From NCBI RefSeq assembly GCF_964019385.1, contig NC_088654.1:2490450-2554449 (forward strand): 64,000 bases of DNA. The letters run 5' to 3'. The position numbers and the translations under genes were made by a program. The notes below the pieces were generated by a model, which saw only the letters and a list, made by a program, of their open reading frames with translations, was not told where the DNA came from and did no database searches. Shown here one piece after another: positions 4,666 to 50,490 of the stretch (position 1 is its first letter; each line of letters opens with the position of its first letter). This stretch comes from Sycon ciliatum (taxonomy: Eukaryota; Porifera; Calcarea; Leucosolenida; Sycettidae).

Positions 4666-4830
4666 CTTTGCAGGTGGGTGTTGTCAATGAGCGATCAGCC
4701 TGGCAGGTCGGTTTGGCATCTCCATCAAGCACATAGTTAACTTTGCATGAGTATGTGACTGTTTCCTGGAAAGATATCTGTTTTGCATTTTTCAGCCCAT
4801 CTGGGATATCAGGTACTGTACACTTGACAG
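4666..4830 (-). CDS. Sushi (CCP) exon S165, diverged paralogue of S168b
   Basis: This is the most downstream intact exon of the modular gene. Minus-strand acceptor TTATTTACAG and donor CAAAG|GTAAGC bound 165 bp, phase 1 at both ends. The translation starts AVKCTVPDIPDG and has the four sushi cysteines (KC, YSC, PTC, PTC) with a normal ~55-residue length. The Trp usual between Cys3 and Cys4 is absent, as in its paralogues. The opening CTGTCAA.TG and position just after an S132 exon match S168b (19902, 46823), but the rest has diverged. It therefore predates the recent tandem duplication. Sushi modules typically mediate extracellular protein binding; the ligand is unknown. Confidence 0.8.
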
Positions 4831-5284
4831 CTGTAAATAACAAGAAAAAAACACCAGATATTCGCACTTGATATATGTTCGTTGCAACCAACCTTCCGTT
4901 TTCTTTCCTTTCTCTTTTTTCTTATATCTACTTTTCCACAATAACCTTTAACATTTTATTCACAGTGGGTCCAATGTGGTATACGCTACAGGCGCTAAGT
5001 GCGGTTTGCTGTGTGCGCTGTAGTTGTATGTTGTATGTGTATGCTTTTCTCAAACACGTTGTCATTTCCACGCTATAACTACCTGGTGGTATTAGCGTTA
5101 GTTATTCATTGTTAATTCGTCGATCGAAGTCATTATTATACTGTTGAGAATAAATAGTTGTCTCCGTGCCGTGTGGTCGTTTGTTCCTGACACTTTAGAG
5201 AACCAGAGGGTTCACAACAGCACTGAAGGATATAGCCATGATGCTGAATCCGTTCTATGTTGCGCATGCATGTAGCCATACGCT
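4831..5284. other. Intron and start of duplicated unit 1; LTR-like segment
   Basis: The sequence shared with unit 2 begins at about 4990. From there to ~5230 it includes an AATAAA signal near 5149, then GT-rich sequence and AGAACCAGAGGGTTC, and leads directly into retroelement coding debris. This looks like an R/U5-like segment or 5' leader of a degraded retroelement, but no matching second LTR was found. No host exon is seen. Confidence 0.3.
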
Positions 5285-5481
5285 CAACTGCCAAATCAGC
5301 TCTATTGCCCGATGGACGGCAACTGCCAAATCAGCTCTATTGCCCGATGGACGGCAACTGCCAAATCAGCTCTATTGCCCGATGGACGGCAACTGCCAAA
5401 TCAGCTCTATTGCCCGATGGACGGCAACTGCCAAATCAGCTCTATTGCCCGATGGACGGCAACTGCCAAATCAGCTCTATT
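5285..5481 (+). repeat. 35-bp minisatellite inside retroelement coding sequence, 5 units
   Basis: The 35-bp unit starts at 5307, 5342, 5377, 5412 and 5447, with a 22-bp partial unit before them. The unit contains GATGGACGGCAACTGCCAAA. The last copy is in frame with the GIY-YIG-like fragment that follows (CPMDGNCQISS). Because 35 is not a multiple of 3, earlier units shift frame each time. Unit 2 has only three units (21066-21170), and the 70-bp difference accounts for the offset change between the two duplicated blocks. Confidence 0.95.
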
Positions 5482-5612
5482 GTGTACAAGGCAACCATCC
5501 AAGTAGCCGGAGAGGACAGACAGAAGGAGTATATCGGTCTTACGGACCCTGCATTCGAGAGGAGAGGAGACACAACAACCATTAATTTTAACATCATTCA
5601 GACAGCTAGCTT
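5446..5612 (+). pseudogene. GIY-YIG-like retroelement fragment
   Basis: The frame reads CPMDGNCQISSIVYKATIQV, then EYIGLTDPAFERR. This is the Cys-rich lead-in followed by YIG and the downstream Arg helix seen in GIY-YIG endonuclease domains of Penelope-like and related eukaryotic retroelements. The fragment covers only the start of the domain, without the later catalytic Glu, and runs on into LINE-like sequence. It is a relic, not a working gene. Assignment rests on motif recognition alone. Confidence 0.55.
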
Positions 5613-5889
5613 GTGCTGCCTGTTCTCCTTTATAACTGTGACACATGGGGAGTGCCCCAGGCAGTCTTTGAGCGACTGGACTGTTTTCACCGTCGACAGC
5701 TCAGAAATCTGATAGCAGTGCGATATCCAGACAGAAATACAAATGATGAATCTGTATTCCAGATGTGGCTCGCAGCCACTGTCGGAGCTTGTTGCAAAGC
5801 GACGCCGTAGCCTCACTGGCCATGTGCTGAGGATGAATGAGCAATCATTCCCTTGCCTTGCGATGTCCTGCTATTTCGAGCGGGATCAA
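5613..5889 (+). pseudogene. LINE reverse-transcriptase C-terminal fragment, frameshifted
   Basis: In one frame the product contains LLYNCDTWG...DCFHRRQLRNLI...YPDR..ND, the region downstream of the RT core in many non-LTR elements. After a frame change near 5780 a second frame continues with LSELVAKRRRSLTGHVLRMNE and then SCYFERD. The same layout occurs in the LINE tail at 9880-10378 (YNC.VW, FHRKQLRRLLGI.YPE, RRARWKLFGHILR). It is broken by frameshift and lacks the RT catalytic core. An almost identical copy is in unit 2 (21302-21578). Confidence 0.65.
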
Positions 5890-6175
5890 ATTATTTAATT
5901 AAAACCGTGAAACTCAGAGTTACAGCAGAAACGCTTTTGATTCCGCTCAAGTGTATGACCTAGGCTCTGCACCTTGGTGTATTGAGCACTCTCACCAGCA
6001 ACCACAACTCCCTCCGAATTAACATAACACATACCGCTTTACTGCTAAATTTGCTTACAAAATGCTGAAAGTTGAAATCTGACAAGAATATCACATGTGA
6101 CCACATCTAAATTGCTTTCATCGTCCCCGCATTCTCATTGTCAAATGTTGAAACTTAGACAAAATAATTACTTAC

Positions 6176-6307
6176 GTGTGCATGTAGGGGCCTGAGTACT
6201 GCCGTTGCACACTGATTGATTACTCAGATACTCATATCCATTGTTGCATTGAACCTTACCATCGGCTGATATATTCCAAATATGATCACTTGCAGATCTA
6301 TTGCAAT
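6176..6307 (-). CDS. Sushi-like exon S132, unit 1
   Basis: Minus-strand exon of 132 bp bounded by acceptor CTTTAG and donor CACAC|GTAAGT, phase 1 at both ends. The 44-residue product has four cysteines (C at residue 2, VQCNNGYEY, VCNGS, PTC), a short form of the sushi fold with a conserved GYEYL turn. It lies between the 4C exon at 9203 (upstream in the gene) and S165 at 4666. The exon in unit 2 is identical, while unit 3 differs at eight sites. A more diverged homologue is at 47928. Its role as an extracellular binding module is inferred from family. Confidence 0.75.
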
Positions 6308-6500
6308 CTAAAGAGGATGAAAATCGGAGAGAAATCGACACCCTTACACTACTGATTCGCGTTTGTCAAAATCAATGCCAGTTATATGACTTTGCACATC
6401 AACTTGGCAAAAAAACCCAGTGGGTGAACTCGTCCCTAATACTGTCATGCATGAGGACTGCTGTTAGATAGGGGCGTCTGGTATTGTACAACTAGTTTTC

Positions 6501-6700
6501 NNNNNNNNNNNNNNNNNNNNNNNNNNNNNNNNNNNNNNNNNNNNNNNNNNNNNNNNNNNNNNNNNNNNNNNNNNNNNNNNNNNNNNNNNNNNNNNNNNNN
6601 NNNNNNNNNNNNNNNNNNNNNNNNNNNNNNNNNNNNNNNNNNNNNNNNNNNNNNNNNNNNNNNNNNNNNNNNNNNNNNNNNNNNNNNNNNNNNNNNNNNN
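6501..6700. other. Assembly gap (200 N)
   Basis: Two hundred Ns. The left flank ends ACTAGTTTTC and the right flank begins GCAAAGCTTCCCC. In units 2 (22189/22190) and 3 (33089/33090) these flanks are directly adjacent, so the gap probably contains no missing sequence. Confidence 0.95.
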
Positions 6701-6893
6701 GCAAAGCTTCCCCCTTTCTCTATCTCTGATATTGCTGACCCACCCCTGTTGGGATGAGCAGCGCCTTATGGTTCGACATAGGCAGTTTGTAGGTATAACA
6801 ATTGTTTTCGTACGCATTCAACATTTATGACGGTTTAGTACAACTGTATTAGCCTGAAAAAGACAAAAATTATATGGACCGGCTGTGGTAGGT

Positions 6894-7073
6894 GTTTGCT
6901 ACAAAGTGGGCAGTTGCTGCGAAGTGGGCGTTTGCTGTGAAGTGGGCGTTTGCTGCGAAGTGGGCGTTTGCTGCGAAGCGGGCGTTTGCTGCGAAGTTGG
7001 CGTTTGCTGTGAAGTTGGCGTTTGCTGCGAAGTTAGCGTTTGCTGCGAAGTTGGCGTTTGCTGCGAAGTGTTC
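6894..7073 (+). repeat. 18-bp minisatellite, 10 units
   Basis: GTTTGCTGCGAAGTGGGC and variants (GTTGGC, GTTAGC, GTGAAG) are repeated ten times. Units 2 and 3 carry fifteen copies each. Two frames stay open through it because 18 is a multiple of 3, giving AAKWAF-like or CCEVGV-like repeats. There is no evidence that these are translated. Confidence 0.95.
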
Positions 7074-7396
7074 GTTTCCAGGGGACTTTACGGCACTAGT
7101 AGAACCAATTCAAAAATGCTGCATAACATTGGATTTAGTTGCAAACTGCACATAACACCCGTTCTTTCTTTCTCCGAAATATTGGTCCCCTGTGGGGGTA
7201 GAGGTGGGAGGGGGGGGGGGGTTGAGGGGTGCATCCAACATAACCAGTGTTCGGTTATCCCGTTCCCTCGTCTATGCGGACATTGTTTTATGGAAAACGG
7301 ATGTGTGCTGCTAAACGAGGTCTGACTGTATTCAGTGGTTTCTATACACATTATTGTGAGCTCTTATTCTAGTTTTATAAGTATAAGAATGTATAA

Positions 7397-7829
7397 GGGC
7401 CGGGTTCCACTGCGGCTCCGCGGCTCCGCTGCTCAGCTGCTCCGCGGCTCCGCTGATCCGCGGCACTTGGCTGCATGCAGCGGAGCAGCGCGGTTTCACT
7501 GACACTCGCCATTCGCGGTACCGCGGTCGTGGTCCACACTTGTTGATGACGTTTCACCTGCCTGCGCGCGCGAAATCCAAAAATCCTCATGTTCTGGCCT
7601 GCGCAACGAATTAAAATTTGAATTTTAAAATTCTGGCGTACAAAACAATGCAAAGTACGGGAAACAGGTCGAGCCGCGACCGCGGCTCGCAGTTTTTGGT
7701 CAAGAATCTTAGCAAAAGCTTGCGGTGAGCCGCGGTCTCCCTGCTCCAGCTCAAGCCGCGGTCACTATGGTAATGATCACGTTTCAAGCCGCGAAAGACG
7801 AGCAGCGGAGCCGCAGTGGAACCTGGCCC
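7397..7829. mobile_element. MITE, GGGCCRGGTTCCACTGCGG ends, unit 1
   Basis: The element is 433 bp with ~27-bp inverted ends (GGGCCGGGTTCCACTGCGG against GGGCCAGGTTCCACTGCGG), a GC-rich interior and CCGCGG-rich subterminal repeats. The flanks are TAA and TTA, so no direct duplication is preserved. The same element sits at the same place in unit 2 (23577-24009) and unit 3 (34488-34920), so it predates the duplication. Confidence 0.75.
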
Positions 7830-9202
7830 TTAGACAAGATGCTGTGTTGCTCTCCCCTTTGCTAAAACGACCTCCCTTGTACACTCTCCACTCTTTGTTG
7901 CCTACTCTGCTTGGCTTGCGCTGCCCGCTACTACGCGCAATGCCAGTACCCTGGACGCACTTAAATCTCCTCACTAGATTCACCATCACCTGTCCCTCCC
8001 ATGCTTCTCCGTCTTGAACATTACTTTTCTTCTTTTCTTCTTTTATTCACCATGGTCGGTTAACACCCGCATCTCCCGTACCGGCTGATTTTATTTTTCA
8101 TGCCATGAGGTGTTGTCTATAATAATAATAATAATAAGAAGAAGAAGAAAAAACAGATGAGTGCAAACAACAGTTCGAATCATCTTTTTCCAATGACTGT
8201 TTCATCTTATGTGTACTTCTTTCTTTTTAGATTGTTTTCATATTATCTCCATCGCTTGGCACTAGACATGGTTGGCGTTTTACCATTCACGCTATTTCGA
8301 CCAGTGACCTGTACAGATTTTTGTGTGTGTAGACATGGCATTTCATCGTTCGCACGCTAGATACAACGGCACTCGTACCCAACACCCAAAATACCGTTGG
8401 TTTGGTACCGTTTCGATGATAGAAAGCTCTTTTTAGCAGGAGAACGGAACAGGAAGATTCCAACTAGGGTTGCATCAAAATTCGATCGCTGCATCAGGAG
8501 TTAGGACTCACAAGCTGAACTGCAACTGTGTCTCGAAAATACACAAAAAAAAAAGTAGACTCGCCCTTTACACGCCGACCGTCGACAATAGCGTGAACGG
8601 TAAACTGCTAACCATATAATTATATTGTTTAATAAAGTAATCCAATATCACTTCATCTCGTCCTCCTTGATGAACGGTATCAGCTGAAGCGACATGTTTT
8701 TTTTATTTATTATTTATTATTTAAAGGATCTCCCAGAGACGATGGCCTGTCGAGGGGATCTCCTGATGCAAATCATGCAATAGAAATAAACAGTGCGGAA
8801 AACTTCACGTGTCACAGTATATGCTACATAATGAGCAATAAACACAGGGCTGGGTTGTTCAAAATAAATGCTAGAAAGGTTTTATTGAAATGTAAAGTGG
8901 TGATGGACAAAGAAAATTGTGATTGAAATGTAATGTGAACGATGAAAAATATAAACATGCATCGAACTAGCTTTTGCACAATGCTCATCCGAAAGCATCG
9001 TTGTAACAAATTGCAACACAGATTACTATAAATGATCAATAGTGATATAGTAACACCTAAACAATGCCAAAAAAGTATCCATCGCCACTTTACATTTCAA
9101 TAAAATCTTTGTAACATGTCGCTTCAGCTGATTCTGTTCATTGCCATCTTTTAAAAAAATTGTCAAAATTGTTGTCTCTTCGCCAAATATTAATGTACTC
9201 AC
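7830..9202. other. Intron, unit 1; AAT/AAG microsatellite
   Basis: No exon is recognised. An (AAT)n(AAG)n microsatellite lies at about 8120-8150, with roughly 4 AAG units here, 6 in unit 2 and 10 in unit 3. The block 8870-9115 contains two related AT-rich segments (ATGCTAGAAAGGTTTTATTG and ATTTCAATAAAATCTTTG) that partly mirror each other. Confidence 0.6.
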
Positions 9203-9490
9203 CAAATTCGCATATAGCGTGGACGTCTTGATCAAGGGAACGTGTCCCGCCTGTGACATAAGCAACACTTGGATTATTGGGCTCCAGCTCATCAACCCAT
9301 GATATCAGTAGTGACGTAGCTAGAGTTCCTACGCAGTTCCCATTATATGCGGCTGCAGTAAGAAGCCTTCCGTTCTTCAACTGGCAATATGCATGGCTAG
9401 TTGTGTAATTGTACACTGTGTCGACCGCTGTTCTCCTTAAAATTGAATTGGTGATACTGCAATACTGATAACCTGTCAGACCTGTGTCCT
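9203..9490 (-). CDS. Four-cysteine (4C) module exon, unit 1
   Basis: Minus-strand exon of 288 bp, acceptor CCCCATGCAG, donor GAATTTG|GTGAGT, phase 1 at both ends. The ~96-residue product has cysteines in the contexts YQYC, AYC, GNCV and AICE, and conserved features TN..LRRT, VAYV and a single Trp (SWVDE). It aligns along its length with the exons at 26096, 36290 and 50194. The ending AICE and the spacing recall C-type-lectin-like folds, but WIG/WND signatures are missing, so I do not assign it. It is flanked by sushi exons and is probably an extracellular recognition or structural module. Confidence 0.7.
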
Positions 9491-9689: not shown

Positions 9690-10735
9690 AGAGAAACAAA
9701 CCAAGTAAGACCCACCAAGACGCGAATCTGGTACCTTGCTTGTCATGAGAAATGCTCTAAATATTGACCTATGGGACTAAGCCAAACCTAGAAGGCGCTG
9801 ACATGTTTTCACTCGAAAGGCAGCTCACAACAGGTGACACACATACTGTCGGCACTTGGGTCTTTTTCCGTACCCCGTGGATGCGGAGACAAGTTATCTC
9901 TGAAGCAACCCGCCTGAGGTTGTTTGATGCATTTGTGCTATCTATTTTGACCTACAACTGCGTCGTGTGGGTGCTTTCATCCCGGGATGCTACAGCAATG
10001 GATGCGTTCCACAGAAAGCAGCTCCGCCGTCTATTAGGGATATCTTACCCGGAAATTATCTCCAACACAGACCTATATGCCCGCTGCAATGCCGAGCCAA
10101 TATCCGTACTAAGCAGAAGAGCACGGTGGAAACTGTTTGGTCATATTCTACGCCTCTCTGAAGCAACTCCAGCACAGGTGAGCATGACAGCGTATTTCCA
10201 GCGACAGAATCGGGGCTGGCTCGGACGCCCGCGCATCACCCTACCAGTGGTGATAGACAACAAATTAGCTAAGGCAACGTCCATGCGTCTCCGGAGTCTG
10301 AAGGACCTGGAGACACTGCGTTTGGTGGCTCGGAACAGGCAATCATTCAACGATATAATCGCACAGGTCACATTGTAGAGTGCAGATCACCTAGTGCTTT
10401 CAACAATAATAACGTACTTCCACATTATGGGAATTTGGTATAACCCCACACCCGTCATTGTTGAATATTCGATAATAGCGTGGATTTCCCCAACAATAAT
10501 TATATTTTCATTTTTTGTTATCCTCTCCCATGCCGTTGTACATCAGCGCCTTCTAGGTTCGGCCTAGTCCCATACCTCGGTGGTTAGAGTGTTGCTCATG
10601 ACAATCAAAGTCCTCAGTTTGAGTTCTGATGTGTCTGGCGTATTCTTCTCTTTTCAGGCAGCCACATTTGCGCAACCCTCCGCCAAGAAACCGAAAACCT
10701 ACTTTGCCGAGTGACTTGAATATTAATTTGAAAAC
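9690..10735. mobile_element. Head-to-head tRNA-like SINE, unit 1, split by LINE tail
   Basis: The left tRNA-like head reads leftward (9775-9700: CCCATAGGTCAATATTTAG then a loop with TCATGA). The right head reads rightward (10567-10640: TGGTTAGAGTGTTGCTCATG then GTTTGAGTTC). The centre pairs GGCGCTGACATG with CAGCGCCTTCTAGG. In units 2 and 3 the centre is continuous; here it is interrupted at 9880-10542. The right end has AATTTGAAAACAATGAGC, which also ends the foldback at 3.1 kb. Confidence 0.6.
9880..10542 (+). mobile_element. 5'-truncated LINE tail (RT C-terminal region and 3' UTR)
   Basis: From 9880 to the stop at 10376-10378 the frame encodes the domain downstream of a non-LTR reverse transcriptase core, with YNCVVW, FHRKQLRRLLGISYPE and RRARWKLFGHILRLSE in order. 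A ~165-bp untranslated tail follows. The RT catalytic region is absent, as expected for 5' truncation. Compared with units 2 and 3, about 48 bp of target sequence are missing at the insertion, so it landed with a target deletion instead of a duplication. The first ~39 codons of the open frame (from 9764) belong to the SINE, not the LINE. The clade is not assigned. Confidence 0.75.
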
Positions 10736-10836: not shown

Positions 10837-10998
10837 GATAGCATTCAGGCAAGGCCGTTATGGAAACATTGCACGACGTGGTTGCCTGTCCGAGCATCCA
10901 ATAGCCACTGTTACATGTGTACGTCACAGATTCAAGATGTTTTATAACTGATACTACAGTGGCTGCGTTGGCAACAACTGGGACACTGCAGTTGTGGG
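10837..10998 (-). CDS. Sushi (CCP) exon S162, unit 1
   Basis: Minus-strand exon of 162 bp, acceptor CCTGCTCAG, donor GCTATC|GTAAGT, phase 1 at both ends. The product (AHNCSVPVVANAATVV...) has the four sushi cysteines in contexts HNC, YTC, TSC and PEC, with SGYW after Cys2. The Trp normally before the last Pro-x-Cys is missing. It lies between EGF (12953) and 4C (9203). Unit 1 has Ala where units 2 and 3 have Gly (ANAATVV against ANAGTVV). Confidence 0.82.
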
Positions 10999-12500
10999 CT
11001 GAGCAGGAAAGGAACAAACAAGTGAAGGATTGATGCTTGAAAACTTTGAAAAATGTAGACCCGATAGATTTGTGGATTTCAACACTAGCAAAAACGCACG
11101 GCTCACATTAGAACTATTGGACAGGAGACTGCGCTCTTGAACATTATCCTTTCGAATTGTCACATGTTGTCACATGTTGCACGTTGATACTATTAGTGTA
11201 TTGTAGTTACGAATTGTGCACAGGACTGTCACATGCTGCAAGGGCAGTATTGTCAAGACATGCTAGGTCGCTTGCAATATTGGTGCGGTGCGTATTACTG
11301 CTATGTATTTTGCGAGTGTAATATTTATTTGTTAGTCTATTAGAATTACATCACGAGTGCATATCTGTTACGTCTACGTCGAGACACATTTTATGATACA
11401 GTAATTGCTATGCGTGTTCGTACCACGACATGTTCACGAGCGGAATATCTCAGTGTGAATTGTGCTAATTTATTATATAATTAGAAATTTTGACACACTA
11501 ATTGGTTGCAATGAACATGTACTTACTGCAGTCAACTTCTCTTATAACGACACTCGGCGGGGCATCAAAAAGGTGTCCTTATTCGGGAAGTGTCGTTATA
11601 CCCGAAGTCTCAATATGTATTACAGTGGGATGGGACTTTGCTATGGGCATGGAAATTCTGTCATTATTCGCGAAATGTCGTTATATCCGCAGCAGTCGTT
11701 ATTAGCCAAATTGACTGTAGTACTTGATCCGTTGCATTATCGCCATCCGCGGCAACTCCGCTACGATCTACTTGGCAAAACTTACTCTCGCTGACAGGGT
11801 GTGCTGTCACCCTGTCGCTGGGTGTAAGCACCCCTTGACAGACACTGTTTTCACCTCCGTAATCAACAATTTTTTATTCTTTCACTTCAGCAGATTGCGA
11901 GTTTCTGTTTGTTCTGCATTCAAATATTATTGCTTTTCTTTTTGTTGCACCTGCATTCCGCGCTGCACGCGGACTTTGGCAGTCGCCATATTTTGTATCT
12001 CTATGGCTACGATGATTCATGCATTTTCTGTACGCTGTATTTTTTTCTTATGCCACGTACATGTACATCGTTGTGTGCATGCATGCGGCGCAAGCCAAAT
12101 GCACGCACGCTGCACGTTTGCTCAGGACAGTGATTTGGCGATCGTTGTTCGGTGTGTTCTTTGGTGGTCTTGTTGAAACGAGTGGTAATGTCGATTAAAG
12201 GAGTTTCTGGGTTTTGTGGTCTGCCTGACGATGGTTAGTTGTGGGACCAAGTCGCACCGCAACAACCATCGTGTGTAATAGCATATCAGTTCTTGCACAT
12301 GTTTATGTAACACGTACTGCGCATGCTCAGCAAGAAAAGGAATCAATTTGATGGAAATGCAGCTGGTTGGGACGAACTAGCACCTGTCATTACGAGAAAG
12401 TTCCGAAACCCAAATTTGAAGCATTTTTTGCCACATGAAACGCAAACTGATAAAGCCCAGTAAAGACGGTTGGATTATAAAATAGACTGAAGCACACTTA
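10999..12500. other. Intron between EGF and S162 exons, unit 1
   Basis: No exon is recognised on either strand. The sequence is nearly identical in unit 3 and in unit 2. In unit 2 it is split at the position equivalent to 11348 by a 3.6-kb inverted-repeat insertion. Open frames here are not supported by homology or splice context. Confidence 0.55.
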
Positions 12501-12952: not shown

Positions 12953-13078
12953 GGACACAATCATGATTCTCCACAATGTATCCAGGGTCGCAGTAACATA
13001 GATAGCTGCCAATAGTATTACGACACTTGATCCTGGTGCCACAAACAGGACTGATTGTGTCCGAACATTCGTCGACAT
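12953..13078 (-). CDS. Calcium-binding EGF exon, unit 1
   Basis: Minus-strand exon of 126 bp, acceptor GATCTAG, donor GTGTCC|GTAAGT, phase 1 at both ends. The 42-residue product starts DVDEC, the calcium-binding signature. It contains CRNTIGSYLCYC, matching the Asx-hydroxylation consensus C-x-[DN]-x4-[FY]-x-C-x-C, then GY and a final cysteine (six in total). Such domains rigidify extracellular tandem modules when calcium is bound. It lies between S168a (16551) and S162 (10837). Unit 3 has one synonymous difference; unit 2 lacks this exon. Confidence 0.88.
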
Positions 13079-16550: not shown

Positions 16551-16718
16551 CCAGGCAAGTAGGTGCGGTAATTGTTCCGTCCGCTGCACATGTTGACTCT
16601 GCTTTTCCAACCAGGCTAAATCCACGATCACACGTAAAGTTGACCTTTTGTCCCTCTAGAACTCCACCTATGAAACTGACCTTGCCATTGGTCAGGGGAT
16701 GAACCGCACAATCACCAT
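16551..16718 (-). CDS. Sushi (CCP) exon S168a, unit 1
   Basis: Minus-strand exon of 168 bp, acceptor TGTGGCAG, donor TGCCTGG|GTATGT, phase 1 at both ends. The product starts DGDCAVHPLTNGK and has four cysteines (GDC, FTC, STC, PTC) and the sushi-typical RGFSL.G turn after Cys2. It lies between S168b (19902) and the EGF exon (12953). Four amino-acid changes and no silent change separate it from the unit 3 copy at 43635. Confidence 0.83.
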
Positions 16719-19901: not shown

Positions 19902-20069
19902 CTTGACAAAATGGTACCGATGTAAGAGTGCTACTGGGTGTGCATGCCGGCATTGCATCACCTATGAGCAGCAACCCCGATGTGCAGGCGTATCTGACTT
20001 TCTGGCCAAAGTGGATGACACTAGCATTTGCAGTTCCATTCAAAATCCCTGGTACAGTGCAGTTGACAG
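19902..20069 (-). CDS. Sushi (CCP) exon S168b, unit 1
   Basis: Minus-strand exon of 168 bp, acceptor TTTCACGCAG, donor TGTCAAG|GTGAGT, phase 1 at both ends. The product starts AVNCTVPGILNG and carries the four cysteines NC, YAC, PAC and PFC. The Trp before the last cysteine is absent. The exon start resembles S165 (4666), its older paralogue. It is the most upstream exon of unit 1, and the duplication junction lies 680 bp further upstream in the gene. Confidence 0.83.
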
Positions 20070-21864: not shown

Positions 21865-21996
21865 GTGTGCATGTAGGGGCCTGAGTACTGCCGTTGCACA
21901 CTGATTGATTACTCAGATACTCATATCCATTGTTGCATTGAACCTTACCATCGGCTGATATATTCCAAATATGATCACTTGCAGATCTATTGCAAT
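21865..21996 (-). CDS. Sushi-like exon S132, unit 2
   Basis: Identical to the unit 1 exon at 6176-6307, including both splice sites. In gene order it follows the 4C exon at 26096 and precedes S168b of unit 1 (20069). Confidence 0.75.
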
Positions 21997-22939: not shown

Positions 22940-22987
22940 TTAGCCTGAAAAAGACAAAAATTATATTATGGACCGGCTGTGGTGGGT

Positions 22988-23257
22988 GTTTGCTACAAGG
23001 TGGGCAGTTGCTGCGAAGTTAGCGTTTGCTGCGAAGTGGGCGTTTGCTGCGAAGTGGGCGTTTGCTGCGAAGTTAGCGTTTGCTGCGAAGTGGGCGTTTG
23101 CTGCGAAGTGGGAGTTTGCTGCGAAGTTAGCGTTTGCTGCGAAGTGGGCGTTTGCTGCGAAGTGGGGGTTTGCTGCGAAGTTGGCGTTTGCTGTGAAGTT
23201 GGCGTTTGCTGCGAAGTTAGCGTTTGCTGCGACGTTGGCGTTTGCTGCGAAGTGTAC
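22988..23257 (+). repeat. 18-bp minisatellite, unit 2, 15 units
   Basis: Same unit as at 6894, expanded by five copies relative to unit 1, with the same order of variants as unit 3 apart from one GGG/GGC change. Confidence 0.95.
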
Positions 23258-23576
23258 GTTTCCAGGGGACTTTACGGCACTGGTAGAACCAATTCAAAAA
23301 TGCTGCATAACATTGAATTTAGCTGCAAACTGCACATAACACCCGTTCTTTCTTTCTCCGAAATATTGGTCCCCTGTGGGGTAGAGGTGGGAGGGGGGGG
23401 GTTGAGGGGTGCATCCAACATAACCAGTGTTCGGTTATCCCGTTCCCTCGTCTATGCGGACATTGTTTTATGGAAAACGGATGTGTGCTGCTAAACGAGG
23501 TCTGACTGTATTCAGTGGTTTCTATACACATTATTGTGAGCTCTTATTCTAGTTTTATAAGTATAAGAATGTATAA

Positions 23577-26095: not shown

Positions 26096-26383
26096 CAAAT
26101 TCGCATATAGCGTGGACGTCTTGATCAAGGGAACGTGTCCCGCCTGTGACATAAGCAACACTTGGATTATTGGGCTCCAGCTCATCAACCCATGATATCA
26201 GTAGTGACGTAGCTAGAGTTCCTACGCAGTTCCCATTATATGCGGCTGCAGTAAGAAGCCTTCCGTTCTTCAACTGGCAATATGCATGGCTAGTTGTGTA
26301 ATTGTACACTGTGTCGACCGCTGTTCTCCTTAAAATTGAATTGGTGATACTGCAATACTGATAACCTGTCAGACCTGTGTCCT
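26096..26383 (-). CDS. 4C module exon, unit 2
   Basis: 288 bp, the same splice sites and the same translation as the unit 1 exon at 9203. In gene order it follows S162 (27119) and precedes S132 (21865). Confidence 0.7.
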
Positions 26384-27118: not shown

Positions 27119-27280
27119 GATAGCATTCAGGCAAGGCCGTTATGGAAACATTGCACGACGTGGTTGCCTGTCCGAGCATCCAATAGCCACTGTTACATGT
27201 GTACGTCACAGATTCAAGATGTTTTATAACTGATACTACAGTGCCTGCGTTGGCAACAACTGGGACACTGCAGTTGTGGG
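27119..27280 (-). CDS. Sushi (CCP) exon S162, unit 2
   Basis: 162 bp, the same borders as 10837-10998, with Gly for Ala at ANAGTVV as in unit 3. Upstream in the gene the next exon is S132 of unit 3 (32764), because the EGF, S168a and S168b exons were lost at the junction near 32700. All are phase 1, so the frame is preserved. Confidence 0.82.
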
Positions 27281-28392
27281 CTGAGCAGGAAAGGAACAAA
27301 CAAGAGAAGGATTGATGCTTGAAAACTTTGAAAAATGTAGACCCGATAGATTTGTGGATTTCAACACTAGCAAAAACGCACGGCTCACATTAGAACTATT
27401 GGACAGGAGACTGCGCTCTTGAACATTATCCTTTCGAATTGTCACATGTTGTCACATGTTGCACGTTGATACTATTAGTGTATTGTAGTTACGAATTGTG
27501 CACAGGACTGTCACATGCTGCAAGGGCAGTATTGTCAAAACATGCTAGGTCGCTTGCAATATTGGTGCGGTGCGTATTACTGCTATGTATTTTGCGAGTG
27601 TAATATTTATTTGTTAGTCTATTAGAATCCGCGATATTCATGTTAAAACAAAATGGCGTCACGATTTATTGAAAGTGGTATAGTTGGTGGTACGAGTGTT
27701 CAAAACCATTTGAACTTCATACTGTTCGTCTTCTTTTTGACATGCTCTCTTTCCATCGTCCTTAGCTTTTGTTTGTTGTGAGCTGTTTTGGCTTTCTCCT
27801 GTACCTCTGGGGGATGCCAAGTGATGGTTTTGAGAGGCTGGTGATGGCTGTGAGCGAGAGTTTGCCGATCGGCGTCGTCCTCGCTGTAGCGATGAAAATA
27901 CTAGTTACTGCGCACCTGGCAGATATCACAACACGTCGGAGCGTCCAGGAGCAAAGGAATCTTGGGTTTTCACTGGAATCTAGTTCCTCCAGCATCGTGT
28001 AGCCCACCGTCGGTGAATGGCGGTCCAGAAAGGTCGAACCTGGTCTTCTGCAGCACCTCGCAGTCCTGAGAGGCACACCGTGTACGCCTGCCATGTATTG
28101 TACAAATAAAACTCATGCAGTAGTGGACTCTACAGTGATGGGTCTCAGCCTGTATGCTGCAAAAGACACAGGAAATGTGACTGGTGTCTGTACACTCAGT
28201 GACTGGACGCCAACACCCCAGTCTTCTCCTGCAGGATCTGTTTGACATTGACATTATGCAGTAGGTCGGCATTGACCTGGTTTGGCAGCTATCGTAATAG
28301 TATCTGCCTGGTTGGATGTAGCAGGTTGGCGTTTGCTCGTCGTCCAGCCCGGAATTTTCTTGTAACTCACGGTGGAGTACACGCAGGGTTTG

Positions 28393-29396
28393 TGATCATC
28401 CCTGTTCACGTCAATATTATCAAACACAACGTTCCCTTTGTCACTCATCTTATCCTAAGTACTGAATTTGCTGAAAATATTGCACCACACTTGTCACAAC
28501 CTACCGCCACTGCTGGCGGTGGCGACTGGTTCGTCAATGGCGGTGACCAGGCTGACTGACTAGCTTCGAGACAGCGGCCTCGTTGTCAACCCCGCGACAG
28601 CCTAAAGGTTGATTTTATCGATCCAGCCTCAGCGCCATGTTGACGATGCCCTAGTGACTGTGTGTCATGGATTGCCTTGCCATCAGCGGTCATTGCCGTC
28701 CACCTTGGTGCAGCCCTCAACAACTGGCTCAGCCGATGGGAGTCTCAAGTGGACAAAGTTGTTGCCAAAGTAGCTCAGAAGATTGGTGCATCGTGGTGTA
28801 GGTGAGCACATAACTAGGACTTCCCAGCGCCTATTTGTCCAGGCTGCGATACTACGTGACATGCTGTACTGCACATTCTTTTCAGCACTGCAAGGCCGGC
28901 AGCTGGACCGACTGCAGGGGCCGCGCACATGCAGGCCGCCTGTTGCCAGTGCAGCATTCTGGAACGTTCCTTCCTTCTGAGATCCGTGGAATAATAACTT
29001 TCTTTGCTTCAAAGCAAGTTGCTTACCTTTCTGTTATGCTCCCAGTGTCCTTACAACAATAACCTACAGCAATGTTTTATTTTCCTTTCCATTCCCCAAC
29101 CAATGAATACTACAATGTCGATTATATTGCTGAATACTTTAGTGTGTGCCCACGCACGCACGTGTGTGTGTGTATACCTCACTCGCCACTCAAAGTTTTG
29201 TTCCCCATTACTGGAACACTGCCTGTTCTTTCAGGACCTGCCATCATCTGCGGATGGGCATTCAATGATTGTATTGTGTGTGTGTTTCATTCAGAATCAG
29301 ATCCGCTATCGTTGCTATAAGAGAAAATCTGTGGGTTCACATCCAGTGCATTTTTAGATTTGCGTGCTTTTCTCGCCACGGGCGCATACATGGGAC

Positions 29397-29477
<81 letters not shown>

Positions 29478-30510
29478 CTGTGTGTATGGGGATATTGTCT
29501 GTATCGGCTTTTGGTACTAATGTTCAGGTCTGTGCTTGCATGTGTGAACATGAAATTGTTCGGTTCTGTGCATGCTATTGCTATGTTGTATATTATTGTA
29601 TGTATGTGTGCATTTCCACGAACAGTGTAGATGAGCGTGGAGAGTGCATTCATCCCTCATCAACCACTTCCCCTGGGCTTACGAGAGTTTTTTCTGAGTA
29701 CCTCTCATTTTTGTTTGTTTCTCTCTGATACTGTATTGATGCCGGTACCTGTACCTCGATGTGTTCCTCTATCTGCAGTCGCCTTTATCCTTCGGTCAAG
29801 TTAACGTTTGTGCTCTATTTATCGTGCGAATCAAAATAAACAATAATAACACAAGTCATGCTAGAGTGACGACATGTGCGTGTAGTAGGGTTGATGCGAT
29901 GGGACGTTATAATTAGGTGGAACAGAAAACGCATTGGGCAGATTGATTGGGCATCATTGATTGTGCTCAGTCTAAACAGTGAACATAATAATTATCTCCA
30001 GTGACAGACTGTAGCGGCTAGCCTCCAATAGGTAGCTGCCACTAGTCGCTACTGCTTGTTTGACAGGTGCCGCCAGAACCCCTGTTGTGTCATGCTATAG
30101 ATGCACATGCCCTATTCTGGGGCATACTGAGGTACTTTGATTTTGTTGACTGCATGTAGACAGCATCCAATAGTAGTACTCGTAGACCATGGCTCTTTGT
30201 AGGTCAACCACCATCGCATGGATCGATCGGTGACTATGCACTTGGAGGTTGGAATAGCCCGCGCTGAACAGATCTTGCCATGGCCCAGGGAGTGAACTCG
30301 CTTACTCGACTATCCCGGTTTTAGTTAACCAGCATGAGTGGTGCGATTTGTCCATACCATGTTGCGAGCTGACAGTTGTTTGGGCAGGTTTTGAGCTGCA
30401 CCACGAAACAAAGCGAAATAACGGCGCGACTGTAGAGCAAGGAAGCGGCGAGACGGCACTTCCAGGACGAGGCAGGCAGTAGAGATGCGTTCACAGCACG
30501 AGCAACCTCT
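28393..30510. other. Loop of the inverted-repeat insertion
   Basis: Unique sequence between the two arms. It contains a (TG)n tract at 29399-29475 and no recognised transposase. A minus-strand frame at 28683-29012 (109 residues) has no recognisable motif. The loop may be captured genomic DNA. Confidence 0.5.
29399..29486. repeat. (TG)n microsatellite
   Basis: About 40 TG dinucleotides with two GC interruptions. Confidence 0.95.
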
Positions 30511-31260
30511 CAAACCCTGCCGGTACTCCACAGTTACAAGAAAATGTCGGACTGGACGACGCGCCAATGCAAACCTGCTACATCCACCCAGGCAGATAGC
30601 TGCCAAACCAGGCCTATGTCGACCCACTGCATACCGGTATGTCAATGTCAAACAGATCCTGCAGGAGAAGACTGGGATGATATTGGCGTCCAGTGTACGG
30701 ACACCAGTCACATTTCCTGCGTCTTTTGCAGCATACAGGATAGACTCATCACTATAAAGTCCACTAGTTCGTGATTTTTATTTGTAGAATACATGACAGG
30801 CGTATTCAGTGTGCCTCGCAGGACTGCGAGATGCTACAGAAGACCAGGTTCGACCTTTCTGGACCGCCATTCACCGACGGTGGGCTACACGATGCTGGAG
30901 GAACTAGATTCCAGTGAAAACCCAATATTCCTTTGCTCCTGGACGCTCCGACGTGTTGTGATATCTGCCAGGTGTGCAGTAACTAGTATTTTCATCGCTA
31001 TAGCGAGGACGACGCCGATCGGCAAACTCTCGCTCACAGCCATCACCAGCCTCTCAAAACCATCATTTGGCATCCCCCAGAGGTTTAGGAGAAAGCCAAA
31101 ACAGCTCTCAACAAACAAAAGCTAAGGACGATGGAAAGAGAGCATGTCAAAAAGAAGACGAACAGTATGAAGTTCAAATGGGTTTGAACACTCGTACCAC
31201 CAACTATACCACTTTCAATAAATCGTGACGCCATTTTGTTTTAACACGCATACGGTCCAT

Positions 31261-32414: not shown

Positions 32415-32702
32415 GGGGCCAGTCACACTGAGGGAGAATTTGAAAAAATCCTTGGTTACCATGGACATTTGCCGCTGTGCGGGGTATTTGTGAGATTTAA
32501 TCCACTCGATGAATATCAGCTCGAGGCCTCGCTTTTCCGCCGAAGATTATAATCATCCGCGGCTTTCACTGGATTTCTTTGAGTTTCCTTGTTTTTTTAT
32601 TACGATGTGAAGTGGAACGATACTATAGAGGCTGTGCTGATGCAGTTCTGGCCCAGGAGCGGGGCTGACAGACTGCCAGAAGCGAGTGGTGACAAAAAAT
32701 TG
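32415..32702. mobile_element. MITE with TTA flank, truncated by junction, unit 2
   Basis: The left 288 bp of the 406-bp element seen at 12501 and 39592. It ends where unit 3 begins, and its right inverted end is gone. Confidence 0.85.
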
Positions 32703-32704
32703 CT
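32697..32704. other. Duplication junction, unit 2 / unit 3 (AAATTGCT microhomology)
   Basis: AAATTGCT is present in both parents: within the MITE (12786-12793 in unit 1) and 5' of the S132 region (6109-6116 in unit 1). The junction keeps one copy. Relative to a full unit, about 8 kb with three exons is missing. Confidence 0.85.
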
Positions 32705-32763: not shown

Positions 32764-32895
32764 GTGTGCATGTAGGGGCCTTATTACTGCCGTTGCACGC
32801 TGGTTGGTTACCTAGATACTCATATCCATTGTTGCATTGAACCTTACCATCGGCTGATATATTCCAAATATGATCACTTGCAGTTCTATTGCAAT
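32764..32895 (-). CDS. Sushi-like exon S132, unit 3, diverged
   Basis: 132 bp, the same phase-1 borders as 6176-6307. Eight substitutions separate it from units 1 and 2, seven of them within ~45 bp. They change S to G, S to P, V to A, T to N and Q to K around the third cysteine, and S to T near the start; only two are silent. The four cysteines and the GYEYL turn are kept, so the module should still fold. Confidence 0.75.
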
Positions 32896-33838: not shown

Positions 33839-33886
33839 TTAGCCTGAAAAAGACAAAAATTATATTATGGACCGGCTGTGGTGGGT

Positions 33887-34156
33887 GTTTGCTACAAGGT
33901 GGGCAGTTGCTGCGAAGTTAGCGTTTGCTGCGAAGTGGGCGTTTGCTGCGAAGTGGGCGTTTGCTGCGAAGTTAGCGTTTGCTGCGAAGTGGGCGTTTGC
34001 TGCGAAGTGGGAGTTTGCTGCGAAGTTAGCGTTTGCTGCGAAGTGGGCGTTTGCTGCGAAGTGGGCGTTTGCTGCGAAGTTGGCGTTTGCTGTGAAGTTG
34101 GCGTTTGCTGCGAAGTTAGCGTTTGCTGCGACGTTGGCGTTTGCTGCGAAGTGTAC
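33887..34156 (+). repeat. 18-bp minisatellite, unit 3, 15 units
   Basis: Fifteen copies, one base different from unit 2. Confidence 0.95.
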
Positions 34157-34487
34157 GTTTCCAGGGGACTTTACGGCACTAGTAGAACCAATTCAAAAAT
34201 GCTGCATAACATTGAATTTAGTTGCAAACTGCACATAACACCCGTTCTTTCTTTCTCCGAAATATTGGTCCCCTGTGGGGAAGAGGTGGGGTAGAGGTGG
34301 GAGGGGGGGGGGTTGAGGGGTGCATCCAACATAACCAGTGTTCGGTTATCCCGTTCCCTCGTCTATGCGGACATTGTTTTATGGAAAACGGATGTGTGCT
34401 GCTAAACGAGGTCTGACTGTATTCAGTGGTTTCTATACACATTATTGTGAGCTCTTATTCTAGTTTTATAAGTATAAGAATGTATAA

Positions 34488-35204: not shown

Positions 35205-35235
<31 letters not shown>

Positions 35236-36289: not shown

Positions 36290-36577
36290 CAAATTCGCAT
36301 ATAGCGTGGACGTCTTGATCAAGGGAACGTGTCCCGCCTGTGACATAAGCAACACTTGGATTATTGGGCTCCAGCTCATCAACCCATGATATCAGTAGTG
36401 ACGTAGCTAGAGTTCCTACGCAGTTCCCATTATATGCGGCTGCAGTAAGAAGCCTTCCGTTCTTCAACTGGCAATATGCATGGCTAGTTGTGTAATTGTA
36501 CACTGTGTCGACCACTGTTCTCCTTAAAATTGAATTGGTGATACTGCAATACTGATAACCTGTCAGGCCTGTGTCCT
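36290..36577 (-). CDS. 4C module exon, unit 3
   Basis: 288 bp with the same borders as 9203-9490. One amino-acid change (RRTVVD for RRTAVD) and one silent change. It follows S162 (37930) and precedes S132 (32764) in the gene. Confidence 0.7.
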
Positions 36578-37929: not shown

Positions 37930-38091
37930 GATAGCATTCAGGCAAGGCCGTTATGGAAACATTGCACGACGTGGTTGCCTGTCCGAGCATCCAATAGCCA
38001 CTGTTACATGTGTACGTCACAGATTCAAGATGTTTTATAACTGATACTACAGTGCCTGCGTTGGCAACAACTGGGACACTACAGTTGTGGG
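37930..38091 (-). CDS. Sushi (CCP) exon S162, unit 3
   Basis: 162 bp with the same splice borders as 10837. It shares ANAGTVV with unit 2. A change at the first cysteine codon (TGC to TGT) is silent. It follows the EGF exon at 40044. Confidence 0.82.
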
Positions 38092-40043: not shown

Positions 40044-40169
40044 GGACACAATCATGATTCTCCACAATGTATCCAGGGTCGCAGTAACATAAATAGCTGC
40101 CAATAGTATTACGACACTTGATCCTGGTGCCACAAACAGGACTGATTGTGTCCGAACATTCGTCGACAT
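40044..40169 (-). CDS. Calcium-binding EGF exon, unit 3
   Basis: 126 bp, protein identical to the unit 1 exon (12953-13078), with one silent change (CTA to TTA). All six cysteines, DVDEC and the hydroxylation motif are intact. Confidence 0.88.
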
Positions 40170-43634: not shown

Positions 43635-43802
43635 CCAGGCAAGTAGGTGCGGTAAGTGTTCCGTCCGCTGCACATGTTGACTCTGCTTTTCCAACCAGGC
43701 TAAATCCACGATCACACGTAAAGTTGACCTTTTGTCCCTCTGGAACTCCACCTATGACACTGATCTTGCCATTGGTCAGGGGATGAACCGCACAATCACC
43801 AT
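43635..43802 (-). CDS. Sushi (CCP) exon S168a, unit 3
   Basis: 168 bp, the same borders as 16551-16718. The four differences from unit 1 all change amino acids (V to I, F to V and L to P between Cys1 and Cys2; I to L before the last cysteine). Cysteines and the RGFSL turn are kept. Confidence 0.83.
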
Positions 43803-46822: not shown

Positions 46823-46990
46823 TTTGACAAAATGGTACCGATGTAAGAGTGCTACTGGGTGTGCATGCCGGCATTGCATCACCTATGAGCAGTAACCCCG
46901 ATGTGCAGGCGTATCTGACTTTCTGGCCAAAGTGGATGACACTAGCATTTGCAGTTCCATTCAAAATCCCTGGTACAGTGCAGTTGACAG
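46823..46990 (-). CDS. Sushi (CCP) exon S168b, unit 3
   Basis: 168 bp, the same borders as 19902-20069. One silent change (TTG to TTA). The last exon base is A instead of G, so the donor reads CAAA|GTGAGT instead of CAAG|GTGAGT. This weakens the donor and changes the split codon from G.. to A... It follows the older S132 exon at 47928. Confidence 0.8.
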
Positions 46991-47664
46991 CTGCGTGAAA
47001 AAAAGACACCACAGGAAGAGAGAAATCATGCTAGGCTTAATGGTCCGTTTACATGGCTGAAGCCAGTCACTGCAATCTTATCTTCTTTCTAGTCTATGCA
47101 TATAGTCCTTTTGACAAAATTGTGCCTGCAACGAGATTCGGTGGTTTCTATGCAAATCTATAATTTGATGTTCAGTTCCTCTGTGCTGCGCTGATGAGAC
47201 CGCAAAGTACGAAAAATGTTCTGTCAGCAGATTGAGTAATTTGTTGTGTAAGAAGAAATGAGGATGAAGGAGCTTCAAGCTAAGCTGTAATGATGAGTAA
47301 CACCACCCGGTACATTACAATCAGGTCATGCGACAACATTGCATGACACTGACCAGTGGTAACATCAAGAATGTGCCAGGATTTGAAAACCGTTTTATAG
47401 GGCAATAGAACAGAGACTGGGGTGATAGTAAAAGGTTTGCTGTAGTTGTACCAGCCTCTTCTTTAGCATAATAAAGCTAGGAGTGAAACGGCGGGCCCAT
47501 ATTCTTTATCGACTAGATCCAATCCTATCGACTGACTATCGACTGGTGATCGACTGACATTGCCCTCACACATAAAGACAACAGAAGCACAAAATGAGCG
47601 TATTGTAGGTTTCAACGTCAATCACACCAATACAAAATGTGCAGTTTTGCACCGTTCTGGAACT

Positions 47665-47666
47665 CG
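47665..47666. other. Right end of the duplicated block
   Basis: Identity with the end of unit 1 (20748) stops here after GGAACTC. Sequence beyond it (GACTGTGTGC) is single copy in the window and is presumably the ancestral continuation. Confidence 0.75.
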
Positions 47667-47927
47667 ACTGTGTGCTAAAGCGAAATGGATCCATTTGTCA
47701 AGTGTACTTCACAGGTAAGGACCTGAAATAGCAGAACAAGCCATAGAGCCACATGTACTTCTGGGCATTTTGGCAACATACGTGCGAGTTGGTATGGGGT
47801 TTCCTTCTATCGACTAAAACCTTATCGACAGGCCAGTCGACTCATCGACTCAGTCGCTTTGCCCCTAAATAGAGCTTGCCAAAAGATCAGTTGATGAAGT
47901 GTAGAGAAGATGCCCTCCTTCACTTAC

Positions 47928-48059
47928 CAGTACACATTTCAACTGTTGTAGTACCTTTGCATACCGGCTGGTCATCCAGATATTCATAGCCAATGTCACA
48001 TGTGACGTTACCATTGCTAGATACATCCAAAATATGATCGCCAAGTTGACGCGTACAGC
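47928..48059 (-). CDS. Sushi-like exon S132, older upstream paralogue
   Basis: 132 bp, acceptor TGTTTTCAG, donor GTACTG|GTAAGT, phase 1 at both ends. It shares the layout of the unit S132 exons: a near-N-terminal cysteine, DHI, GNVTC, GYEYLDDQPVC and MC near the end. Many residues differ. It lies between the 4C exon at 50194 and S168b of unit 3, the position expected for S132 in a cassette, and marks an older round of duplication. Confidence 0.75.
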
Positions 48060-50193
48060 CTGAAAACAGGGGATAGAAATAGAAAATGGAGAGAAGAGCA
48101 AGTGGAATTGGTGTTTTTCTGGCCCGCAGTGCCGAAGGAAACGTGAAAATAAAGGTGACTCGCGCCTATTTCCAGACTCGTCATGTTACCTCACAAAAAT
48201 TACACTGTGTTTGTGACAGGGGGAAGTTGAAACTGACCCATACTGATCAGGTCATATGTGTGAGCTGGACCTTTCGAAACTGGAGTGCGCTACAAGCTCG
48301 CTAAGCAAATCCGCATGCTCTTTCTCGAATGTTGGATGCACGAGAACCTGCGCAGAAGACGGGTTTAGAAAAAGGCGCTGGCCGCCTTAAGGGCTCATGG
48401 TCCACATTGTAATCCCACAGTTTATTTTTTGAGAGGTCAATGTTTTACCCAGTGCTGGCCACTGTTGGGACGTACAAAGGGGAAATCCCCTCATGAACAA
48501 AATGTAGATATGCCTAGATAAGCCCTGCCTGTTGCTCATTTTCTCCGATATCTTTCCTTGCACCTGCAATTAGCAATTTTCGATAGGATGGCGATATTTG
48601 TGCTGTTTTCTAGTTTAGAAACATTGAATGAGAACTGATGCACTTTGATGTCTCCTTTGTGTTGCATTGAGGAGCTGAACAGTGGTTGGAGTTCGGTGAG
48701 TGTTTGTGTGGAATTTGGTTTTGTGCTAGTGCAGGATGAAAATGTGCACAATTCAACACATATACATCGAGTCTGATCCTCCACGTTGTTGTACATCGTA
48801 CTGCACTTGACAGCCTTGATCTAATTCCCACCCACTGCCGAAAACCCAGCTGGGAAACGACATGGCGCGGGGGGTGAAGGGGATCAACGGTACTTTACGG
48901 TAGTCGTGGAGGTAAGTTCACTCAGCTCAGGTAAGTGCTGTACTTTTACTGTTCCGAAGGCATGCATGCTGCCGCCCTTTAATGGTTCTGTGTAGTATAT
49001 TTGTGGCTGGGTTTCTGATCGAAAGGACCCCAGTGGCAAGATGCATTGCATCGAATCGAGAGGGGGGGGGGGCGCGGTGTATGCCAATAAAAGTGAACCC
49101 AGTTAATAAAAGCCAATACAATCCCGCGCAGGATTTTATTGGCTATTATTTCCCGATCAGCAAGTCCGCAGGTTGGCTGAAACGGATTTGGTACAGTAGC
49201 ATGGGCTAAACCTGCACACAAACCACTGCTTGGAAAAGGCTCGGTTCGTATACAGGTTTATATTTCGCATACAATCAACTGGTTAGGTTGTACTTCCTCC
49301 GCGTCATTAAAATTGTCGCTTCCCAGAGCGATTTTTCTAATTTATTTTGTCCACTCGATGGGCTAAGAAACCAGCTATAAGTTTAGGCAGAGCATCGTCG
49401 ACGAACCAAGCTTTAGGTAGTGGCCCCCCGCTTCACAGCACTTGCAGCCTGGTAAGTCGACGTCTTCATCAGAGTTCGAGGCAGAAAGTGACCTTTAGCA
49501 CTCAACAAAACAAGACGCGCGTTCAAATTCAGATCAAGAAACTTCGTTTTCCAGCGATCCATGCCTCCAGGTGGCAGGCGAAGAAGGCAAGCTAGCATTT
49601 TTCAAGTACACTGTAACGACCCTCCAGCGGGATAGGGTGAGTAGTTTCGCACCTTCTTTCCTTGGCAAGCGCTTCGCTGATTTTGTTGGTGTTTTCAGAC
49701 CTGCTACCTTCGCAGCAACATGCGCCACAAGTAGGGCATTTTAGGAATTTGAGAACACTTTGTTCTTGCCATCATCACCTTCAGCATTTCGTATTCAGGA
49801 GAGATACCAGGATTCTTGTACCTGAGCTTGCCGTCTTGATAAATGCCCACGGCAACGATGTGGAACGACACGAACTCCAGAAAAATTATATGCGCTCTGG
49901 GGCGGAATAGTGCGGAGCGCGATGAGTTTGCTTGGTGCGGAAGAGAACTCCGACAAAGTCCGAGACCAGCAAGGCTTCAGTAACAAGTAGACAAATTGCG
50001 CAGGAAGGGTCGCACCAATGTTTGAACACATAAAACAGCGATTCTGATAGTTTGACTAAGACGAACCAAGTCACAAACTTTGCGATGTGCGAAGCGACAG
50101 TTTCAATGACGCGGAGGAAGTAGTATGCACATAATAGAACTTATCATTTGCTGAATCACCATTGCAGTTATACGACCAGTAAGAAACGCTTAC
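48060..50193. other. Intron between 4C and S132 exons (older cassette)
   Basis: No exon or terminal inverted repeat is recognised. A G-run (about 49063-49073) and weak open frames are present without support. Confidence 0.45.
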
Positions 50194-50490
50194 TTGTCTC
50201 ACACATGGCATAAAGTACTTGTGTCTTATCACGTGTTCCAGTTTTCGGTGAAGTATCAGCCACTAAGGCCACTCCTGGATCACCATCCTTGTTCAACCAG
50301 GCTATCATATTCTCTTCGAGTGCAGCGGACACGCAACCAGCCTTGTAAGTACCAAAGGTAGCCATGTATGCATTGTTCATACTACACAATGCCGTAGCAT
50401 CTGCAAAATTCAAGTACGTCAGCAGAGGCGTGCGTCGGAGGACTGTGTTGGTTTGGTGACAGTAGTAGGGACTCACAAGCTTAATATCTC
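50194..50490 (-). CDS. 4C module exon, older upstream paralogue
   Basis: 297 bp, acceptor TTCCCTCTGCAG, donor GAGACAA|GTAAGC, phase 1 at both ends. The ~99-residue product aligns with the unit 4C exons: YYC, TNTVLRRT, ALC, AGCV, a single Trp (AWLNKDGD), VALVADT and AMCE. The four cysteines and TN..LRRT are kept despite low overall identity, so the module is under constraint. It is the most upstream exon recognised in the window; the 5' part of the gene is not found. Confidence 0.7.

Follow-up and report, generated by a model that had tools for sequence, protein, structure and literature searches.

A phase 1-1 array of lectin-like, sushi and EGF exon cassettes in the calcareous sponge Sycon ciliatum

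The selectins and the lecticans are animal proteins that combine lectin, EGF and sushi domains, the selectins in that order and together with a transmembrane segment. SVEP1/polydom carries von Willebrand A and pentraxin domains along with EGF and many sushi domains, and the Hydractinia Alr locus is a polymorphic recognition locus. Here we compare with these systems an array of short exons at positions 4666–50490 of a 64,000-nucleotide stretch of Sycon ciliatum DNA (C13:2490450-2554449, hereafter the window). Our analysis suggests, with a probability of about 0.72, that the array is a gene of S. ciliatum or the 5' part of one, encoding a secreted or surface lectin-sushi-EGF protein built from cassettes, which is duplicated between the contigs C12 and C13 and likely serves in binding or recognition.

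Like the selectins and lecticans, the array joins the C-type-lectin fold, EGF and sushi domains in one extracellular protein. Unlike the selectins, it repeats the order lectin, S132 module, sushi, sushi, EGF, sushi; no transmembrane exon was found in a search made with the tail of the relative P0020, and its lectin-like domains fall short of the Pfam threshold. With SVEP1/polydom it shares the many sushi domains and EGF, and it differs in carrying C-type-lectin-like domains within the cassettes. The closest protein in our searches, the RefSeq S. ciliatum protein P0013 (1386 residues, 88% over the whole query), is named 'SVEP1-like', but membership in that family was rejected because a Pfam scan of its modelled part (E 0.1) contained neither a von Willebrand A nor a pentraxin domain.

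Other described systems were compared as well. The sushi-thrombospondins of S. ciliatum and Leucosolenia have at least three tandem sushi domains and one EGF domain near the N-terminus, according to excerpts of their description (PMC6526912). The array resembles them in its tandem sushi domains and EGF; they are, however, defined by a thrombospondin C-terminal region, which is absent from the Pfam scan of P0013 (the 3' end of our array was not reached), and the same excerpts do not mention a lectin-like domain of the 4C type found here. Recognition haplotypes of ascidians and cnidarians vary in gene content, and the Botryllus receptors evolve fast, as summarised in part of PMC12065747. Botryllus fuhc and Hydractinia Alr are different genes from the Sycon array, and we claim no membership. 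In sponges, the expression of C-type lectins rises during cell reaggregation of Oscarella (PMC8380372, in part), and one sushi gene and one C-type-lectin gene of Aplysina aerophoba respond to microbial signals (PMC6208332, in part); both cases concern other genes and other sponges. Extracellular proteins of animals are usually assembled from modules of class 1-1, flanked on both sides by phase-1 introns, in line with the general rule of animal exon shuffling (PMC8001218, in part). The principle is thus already known. The cassette itself is not described in the titles found in the open-licence literature on Sycon sushi, C-type lectin and receptor or link-domain proteins.

Exons and domains of the array

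The preliminary description of the window, made from its letters alone, had listed eighteen splice-bounded exons of phase 1-1 on one strand. All eighteen were recovered within the same span, on the minus strand and ordered from high to low coordinates. Each is bounded by AG and GT, open and a multiple of three in length, each has phase-1 introns on both sides as class 1-1 modules do, and joined in order they yield a single open frame of 1087 residues. With the frame rule lifted, the annotated splice pair still scored best in its neighbourhood for 15 of the 18 exons (chance alone would put one third in frame); in the three misses, the 4C exon of unit U3 and both EGF exons, an out-of-frame site 28–34 bases away was preferred. 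In tblastn, P0013 matches every exon with a best E of 4.3e-21 or lower and has no plus-strand match in the window at E 0.01; we therefore reject the possibility that these are chance exons.

The cassette order also stands as it had been proposed. The six-exon unit recurs, alongside a shortened variant and one ending in S165. Unit U3 (50490–37930) consists of a 297-base 4C exon encoding the first C-type-lectin-like domain (50194–50490), S132 (47928–48059), S168b (46823–46990), S168a (43635–43802), EGF (40044–40169) and S162 (37930–38091). U2 (36577–27119) has only 4C (36290–36577), S132 (32764–32895) and S162 (27119–27280). U1 (26383–10837) repeats the full series with 4C (26096–26383), S132 (21865–21996), S168b (19902–20069), S168a (16551–16718), EGF (12953–13078) and S162 (10837–10998), and U0 (9490–4666) contains 4C (9203–9490), S132 (6176–6307, left of a 200-N gap) and a sushi exon of another type, S165 (4666–4830). 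The 4C exons of U2, U1 and U0 are each 288 bases long.

The inventory of eighteen exons was correct as far as it went, but two further pieces on the minus strand had been overlooked. Upstream of U3, an exon at 52627–52699 (24 codons plus one base), found by tblastn of P0001 and P0013 (E 6e-9), was judged by eye to encode a signal peptide; 24 of its 25 residues are as in the S. ciliatum protein P0001, and the exon ends in a phase-1 donor compatible with the first 4C exon. At the other end, P0013 matches the broken start of a further 4C exon at 3142–3201 (tblastn, E 4e-5), which indicates that the array continues leftwards. A perfect repeat of (AGT)n, some 691 units long, fills positions 1–2074 of the window, and 4 kb to the left of it on C13 read N.

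The 4C exon has a C-type-lectin fold according to the predicted structure of the U1 copy and its structural match, so that the alternative of an unknown fold was rejected. The assignment rests on the fold and not on Pfam membership, since the two 4C domains of the window that were scanned gave no match to Lectin_C; the Pfam matches of 4C are weak (Xlink E 0.031 for U3, under the cut-off, and Lectin_C 0.021 for the relative P0014), and a sequence search of the PDB returned arginine deiminase alone, at E 1.5 or worse. Bearing on a possible calcium-dependent binding of sugars, an EPN triplet is present in five of nine copies of 4C type 2 and QPN in the other four. For the EGF exon the calcium-binding family EGF_CA is matched at 36.3 bits against a cut-off of 27 (E 6.5e-9 for U3). 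The naming of the remaining exons as sushi stands in part: against the Pfam Sushi cut-off of 20.7 bits, S168a (32.7; E 1e-7 for the U1 copy) and S165 (30.9; E 3.8e-7) pass, S162 (19.1; 0.0018) falls just short and S168b (14.2; 0.059) lies below. The four-cysteine S132 module, sushi-like in its second half only, has no Pfam Sushi match, and its structure model (predicted local distance difference test score of 65.6) has no structural match. Phage and viral sequence collections yielded nothing informative for the array.

Copies within the window and on a second contig

The array had been described as grown by tandem duplication in older and recent rounds, and comparison of the copies within the window bears this out. 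Recent copies are 97.3–99.7% identical over 0.8–6.6 kb, while the 4C and S132 of the oldest unit are far diverged. U1 and U3 are 99.3% identical over 6.6 kb and 97.7% identical over 3.2 kb; for U1 and U2 the shared stretches measure 3.0 kb (97.8%) and 1.6 kb (99.5%). The preliminary description had itself named a merger of haplotypes of one copy as a possible source of the units. We consider this unlikely and reject it, because U3, U2, U1 and the 4C exon of U0 lie in one gap-free stretch (6701–55700), which holds all the shared copies except S132 and S165 of U0, left of the gap at 6501–6700. C12 is contiguous at that gap, window positions 6500 and 6701 corresponding to C12:3561794 and 3561795.

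The expectation that exons can be gained or lost with the frame left open is borne out by U2, which lacks S168b, S168a and EGF with the frame kept, and by the different cassette content of the C12 copy. The junction in U2 lies near 32697–32704, and the loss looks like one frame-keeping deletion. Old copies of 4C and S132 differ at 0.31–0.49 of the amino-acid-changing sites (pN) against a saturated 0.76–0.85 of the silent sites (pS), which points to long-term purifying selection. Between recent copies, exons carry 19 differences in 1044 bases and noncoding sequence 81 in 13,269 (rows 1–4 of nine alignments, summed by hand), the exon excess having p under 0.05 in two of the nine alignments, none of which contains an exon indel. 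It is due mainly to two exons: S132 of U2, with eight differences from U1 inside a nearly identical stretch (six amino-acid-changing, two silent), and S168a, with four between U1 and U3, all amino-acid-changing. The U2 copy of S132 adjoins the deletion junction, with unrelated sequence on one side. The simplest reading of the excess is exon-sized gene conversion.

Several other elements lie among the units. U2 contains an insertion at 27641–31246 with inverted ends of about 755 bases that are 90% alike, its empty site being near 11345. An 18/54-base minisatellite occurs in three units (6894–7070, shorter, 22982–23261 and 33881–34160). A plus-strand open reading frame at 9761–10378, by its appearance possibly the end of a non-LTR (long terminal repeat) reverse transcriptase, overlaps a stretch (9880–10542) that has no copy in the other units.

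The S. ciliatum assembly comprises 538.4 Mb in 313 contigs, and 13 chromosome-size contigs, among the 16 contigs sized, carry 529.6 Mb; C13, with our array, is one of them. Over C12:3554098-3625584 the sequence is collinear with that of the window; identity is mostly 92–97%, introns and flanks included. P0013 is the product of the C12 array, and the arrays of C12 and C13 differ in cassette content. Over 180 kb of C12 (3450001–3630000) we found 57 non-overlapping homologous matches, all on the minus strand and including the signal peptide; all but the latter (56 of 57) gave an open, splice-bounded exon under a finder that imposes an open frame and a multiple of three and that misplaces the start of the signal-peptide exon. 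Without the frame rule the same splice pair was chosen in 49 of the 56. In gene order, C12 begins with the signal peptide, a six-exon cassette and three cassettes of 4C-S132-S165, followed by another six-exon cassette, 4C-S132-S165 and S132-S165. In place of the three short cassettes of C12, the window carries a single six-exon cassette in shortened form. Beside the P0013 locus, C12:3452639-3549936 contains more sushi and lectin-like exons, many of them of other types and all on the minus strand, and the whole 180 kb looks like one long exon array. A further copy of the first 4C is present at C8:31235478.

Collinearity breaks near C13:2559087 and C12:3627143, with no N run nearby on either contig, and beyond the break only scattered pieces match, some of them to stretches of C12 already used. 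A plus-strand open reading frame of 1063 residues at 56599–59790, recognised by eye as of a gypsy-type retrotransposon, lies in a stretch of the window (56671–62137) without a counterpart in the collinear part of C12.

Between the C12 and C13 copies, pN is 0.048 (103/2147), pS 0.042 (27/651) and the divergence of the intron flanks 0.051 (281/5516), in 16 exon pairs with S165 of U0 counted twice because it has two C12 partners; intron flanks were counted if under 15% mismatch, and two of the 16 pairs had none usable. The ratio pN/pS is about 1.1, and over these pairs the difference of pN is significant neither against pS (p 0.60) nor against the introns (p 0.68), so positive selection is not claimed. 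Divergence is lower in the array's flank beyond the gene, with 3.0% mismatches over 4606 aligned bases. The cysteines behave differently: in 15 exon pairs the amino acid changed in 87 of 879 codons, yet none of 64 cysteines changed and none was gained. Under simulated random change, 5.5% of substitutions cause a cysteine loss, 1.9% a gain and 3.6% a stop, so that about 7 losses and 2–3 gains were expected for some 127 substitutions (the pN and pS total less the doubled exon); the lack of stops weighs less, as the exon finders required open frames. Since no cysteine was lost against about seven expected, the disulfide frame is under selection while the rest changes at the intron rate, which allows either weak constraint or constraint mixed with diversification. 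The most variable residues are 81–90 (7 of 10) and 31–50 (12 of 20) in five copies of the first 4C, and 71–90 (16 of 20) and 21–30 (8 of 10) in nine copies of type 2.

Related proteins in Sycon ciliatum

P0013 agrees with the window in the signal peptide (24 of 25 residues), the module types, the six- and three-exon cassettes, the phase and the collinear introns and flanks, and differs from it in the number and mix of cassettes. It is an automated model that ends in a few residues without a recognisable C-terminal domain. At residues 571–604 this model seems to read intron-like sequence, and it bypasses an intact lectin-like exon at C12:3596099-3596380.

P0001 and P0002, whose code scpid denotes S. 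ciliatum according to part of PMC6526912, begin with the signal peptide of the window and a first 4C domain and continue with four other 4C-like domains, as judged by eye. P0001 and P0013 are identical across their first 53 residues, and P0001 and P0023 agree at 62% over 201 residues starting just behind the first 4C exon of P0001. P0014 starts inside the first 4C; the rest of this domain, S132 and S168b are common, and from there on it differs more. Separate genes thus have their 5' end in common and part ways at exon boundaries.

P0020 (LOC135827344) resembles the window in having a 4C followed by an S132-like module and in its sushi domains, although the latter do not match those of the window. 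A transmembrane-like stretch and a tail with seven Y-x-x-hydrophobic motifs are its own features, and with them P0020 might be a family member that signals. Three protein searches gave 25 proteins, of which eight match a 4C profile at E 1e-8 or better, all of them from Sycon, and the best of the others reaches E 0.31. The profile alignment itself includes pieces of P0001, P0013, P0014 and P0020, and the searches had a length limit and a word filter, so the result for the 25 proteins does not show absence elsewhere.

Proposed mechanism and its alternatives

We propose that the signal peptide exports a protein that would be secreted or anchored at the surface as a chain of disulfide-bonded beads, namely 4C domains, four-cysteine modules, sushi domains and calcium-binding EGF (of these, 4C, EGF and two of the sushi types are established as domains). 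Several lectin-like domains in one chain would permit multivalent binding. Because the exons are symmetric, the length and order of the chain are free to change, as seen in U2 and between C12 and C13; as the comparison of copies shows, unequal exchange, deletion and duplication add or drop phase 1-1 cassettes with the frame kept. A block of about 70 kb with the gene would have been copied between C12 and C13, and the two copies would then have gained and lost cassettes independently, which the comparison shows unless one of them is an unpurged allele. Between the copies the cysteine frame is held while other positions drift or diversify at the intron rate. Judging by fold and divergence, the protein probably binds extracellular glycans or proteins through its variable lectin-like surface; recognition (of microbes, or of self and non-self cells) or adhesion is our best inference for its role. 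The putative immune or self-recognition role of the preliminary description gains some indirect support from the lectin-like fold, from amino-acid divergence at the intron rate around unchanged cysteines and from the relative P0020 with its transmembrane-like stretch and tyrosine motifs.

Several observations weigh against this proposal. The signal peptide was called by eye without a predictor, S132 is not an established sushi, the RefSeq name of the C12 gene is SVEP1-like and the window contains two 200-N gaps (6501–6700 and 55701–55900). No C-terminal or anchor exon was found in an anchor search limited to the tail of P0020, which matches neither the window nor the 180 kb of C12, and no transcript of this exact C13 locus was found. 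Near-neutral pN could reflect weak constraint on a redundant copy. The origin of the second copy raises its own objections. The C13 block might be an unpurged allele of C12 that was misplaced by scaffolding, its cassette differences then being structural polymorphism within one sponge. In favour of this, the block is collinear with C12 at mostly 92–97%, flanks too, with different transposable element insertions, and two alleles of a very heterozygous sponge could differ as much; the gap-free stretch 6701–55700 is bounded by the two gaps, the sequence immediately left of the window reads N, and C12 and C13 are only 1.8 kb apart in size, C7 and C8 as well as C10 and C11 also being close. The number of chromosome-size contigs, 13, is however odd, and none of the others is a partner for the largest (98 Mb). 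Collinearity breaks in sequence that is gap-free on both contigs, with scattered matches only beyond, and a probe 46 kb to the right of the window gave only scattered repeat-like matches in the 20 kb of C12 around where its counterpart should lie; a further probe, L032, is a repeat with 43 matches. As most of the array is gap-free and the break lies inside gap-free sequence, we favour a real duplication, in which we are fairly confident, and regard a misplaced allele as unlikely.

The array might also belong to an ordinary modular protein of the extracellular matrix that plays no part in recognition. Cassette turnover would then follow neutrally from exon symmetry in a region rich in repeats. 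This is a tentative but serious possibility, given that class 1-1 modules are common in animal extracellular proteins (PMC8001218, in part), that pN, pS and intron divergence are alike, as under weak constraint, and that the few differences within the window could come from exon-sized gene conversion; it must nevertheless allow for selection on the strictly kept cysteines, and the family includes P0020 with its transmembrane-like stretch and tyrosine-rich tail. A decaying or silent duplicate of the C12 gene would likewise have a pN/pS of about 1.1 and leave broken pieces such as the one at 3142–3201, and two protein searches listed no match of about 100% to the window exons, although the window's own proteins may be excluded from them. 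We find such a pseudogene array improbable: the reading frame is open and the splice sites are intact in each of the 18 exons and in the signal peptide, albeit found by programs that required open frames, and the 64 cysteines are unchanged against some seven losses in simulation. At the opposite end, the loci with a common signal peptide and first 4C, with cassettes that differ in number and order among copies or haplotypes and with a lectin-like surface that diversifies on a cysteine frame kept by selection, might form a germline system for the recognition of self or microbes. This is speculative and, on present evidence, rather unlikely; we know of no such recognition locus in calcareous sponges.

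With the duplicated, cassette-built lectin-sushi-EGF gene as our preferred reading, the locus offers a readable case of ongoing exon shuffling in an early-branching animal, where entire modules are shifted as phase 1-1 cassettes and the two copies, apparently on different chromosomes, already carry different sets of them. The public name 'SVEP1-like' conceals a lectin-like family, whose members, with their exact exons, are candidates for studying a possible recognition role of variable lectin-like proteins in calcareous sponges.

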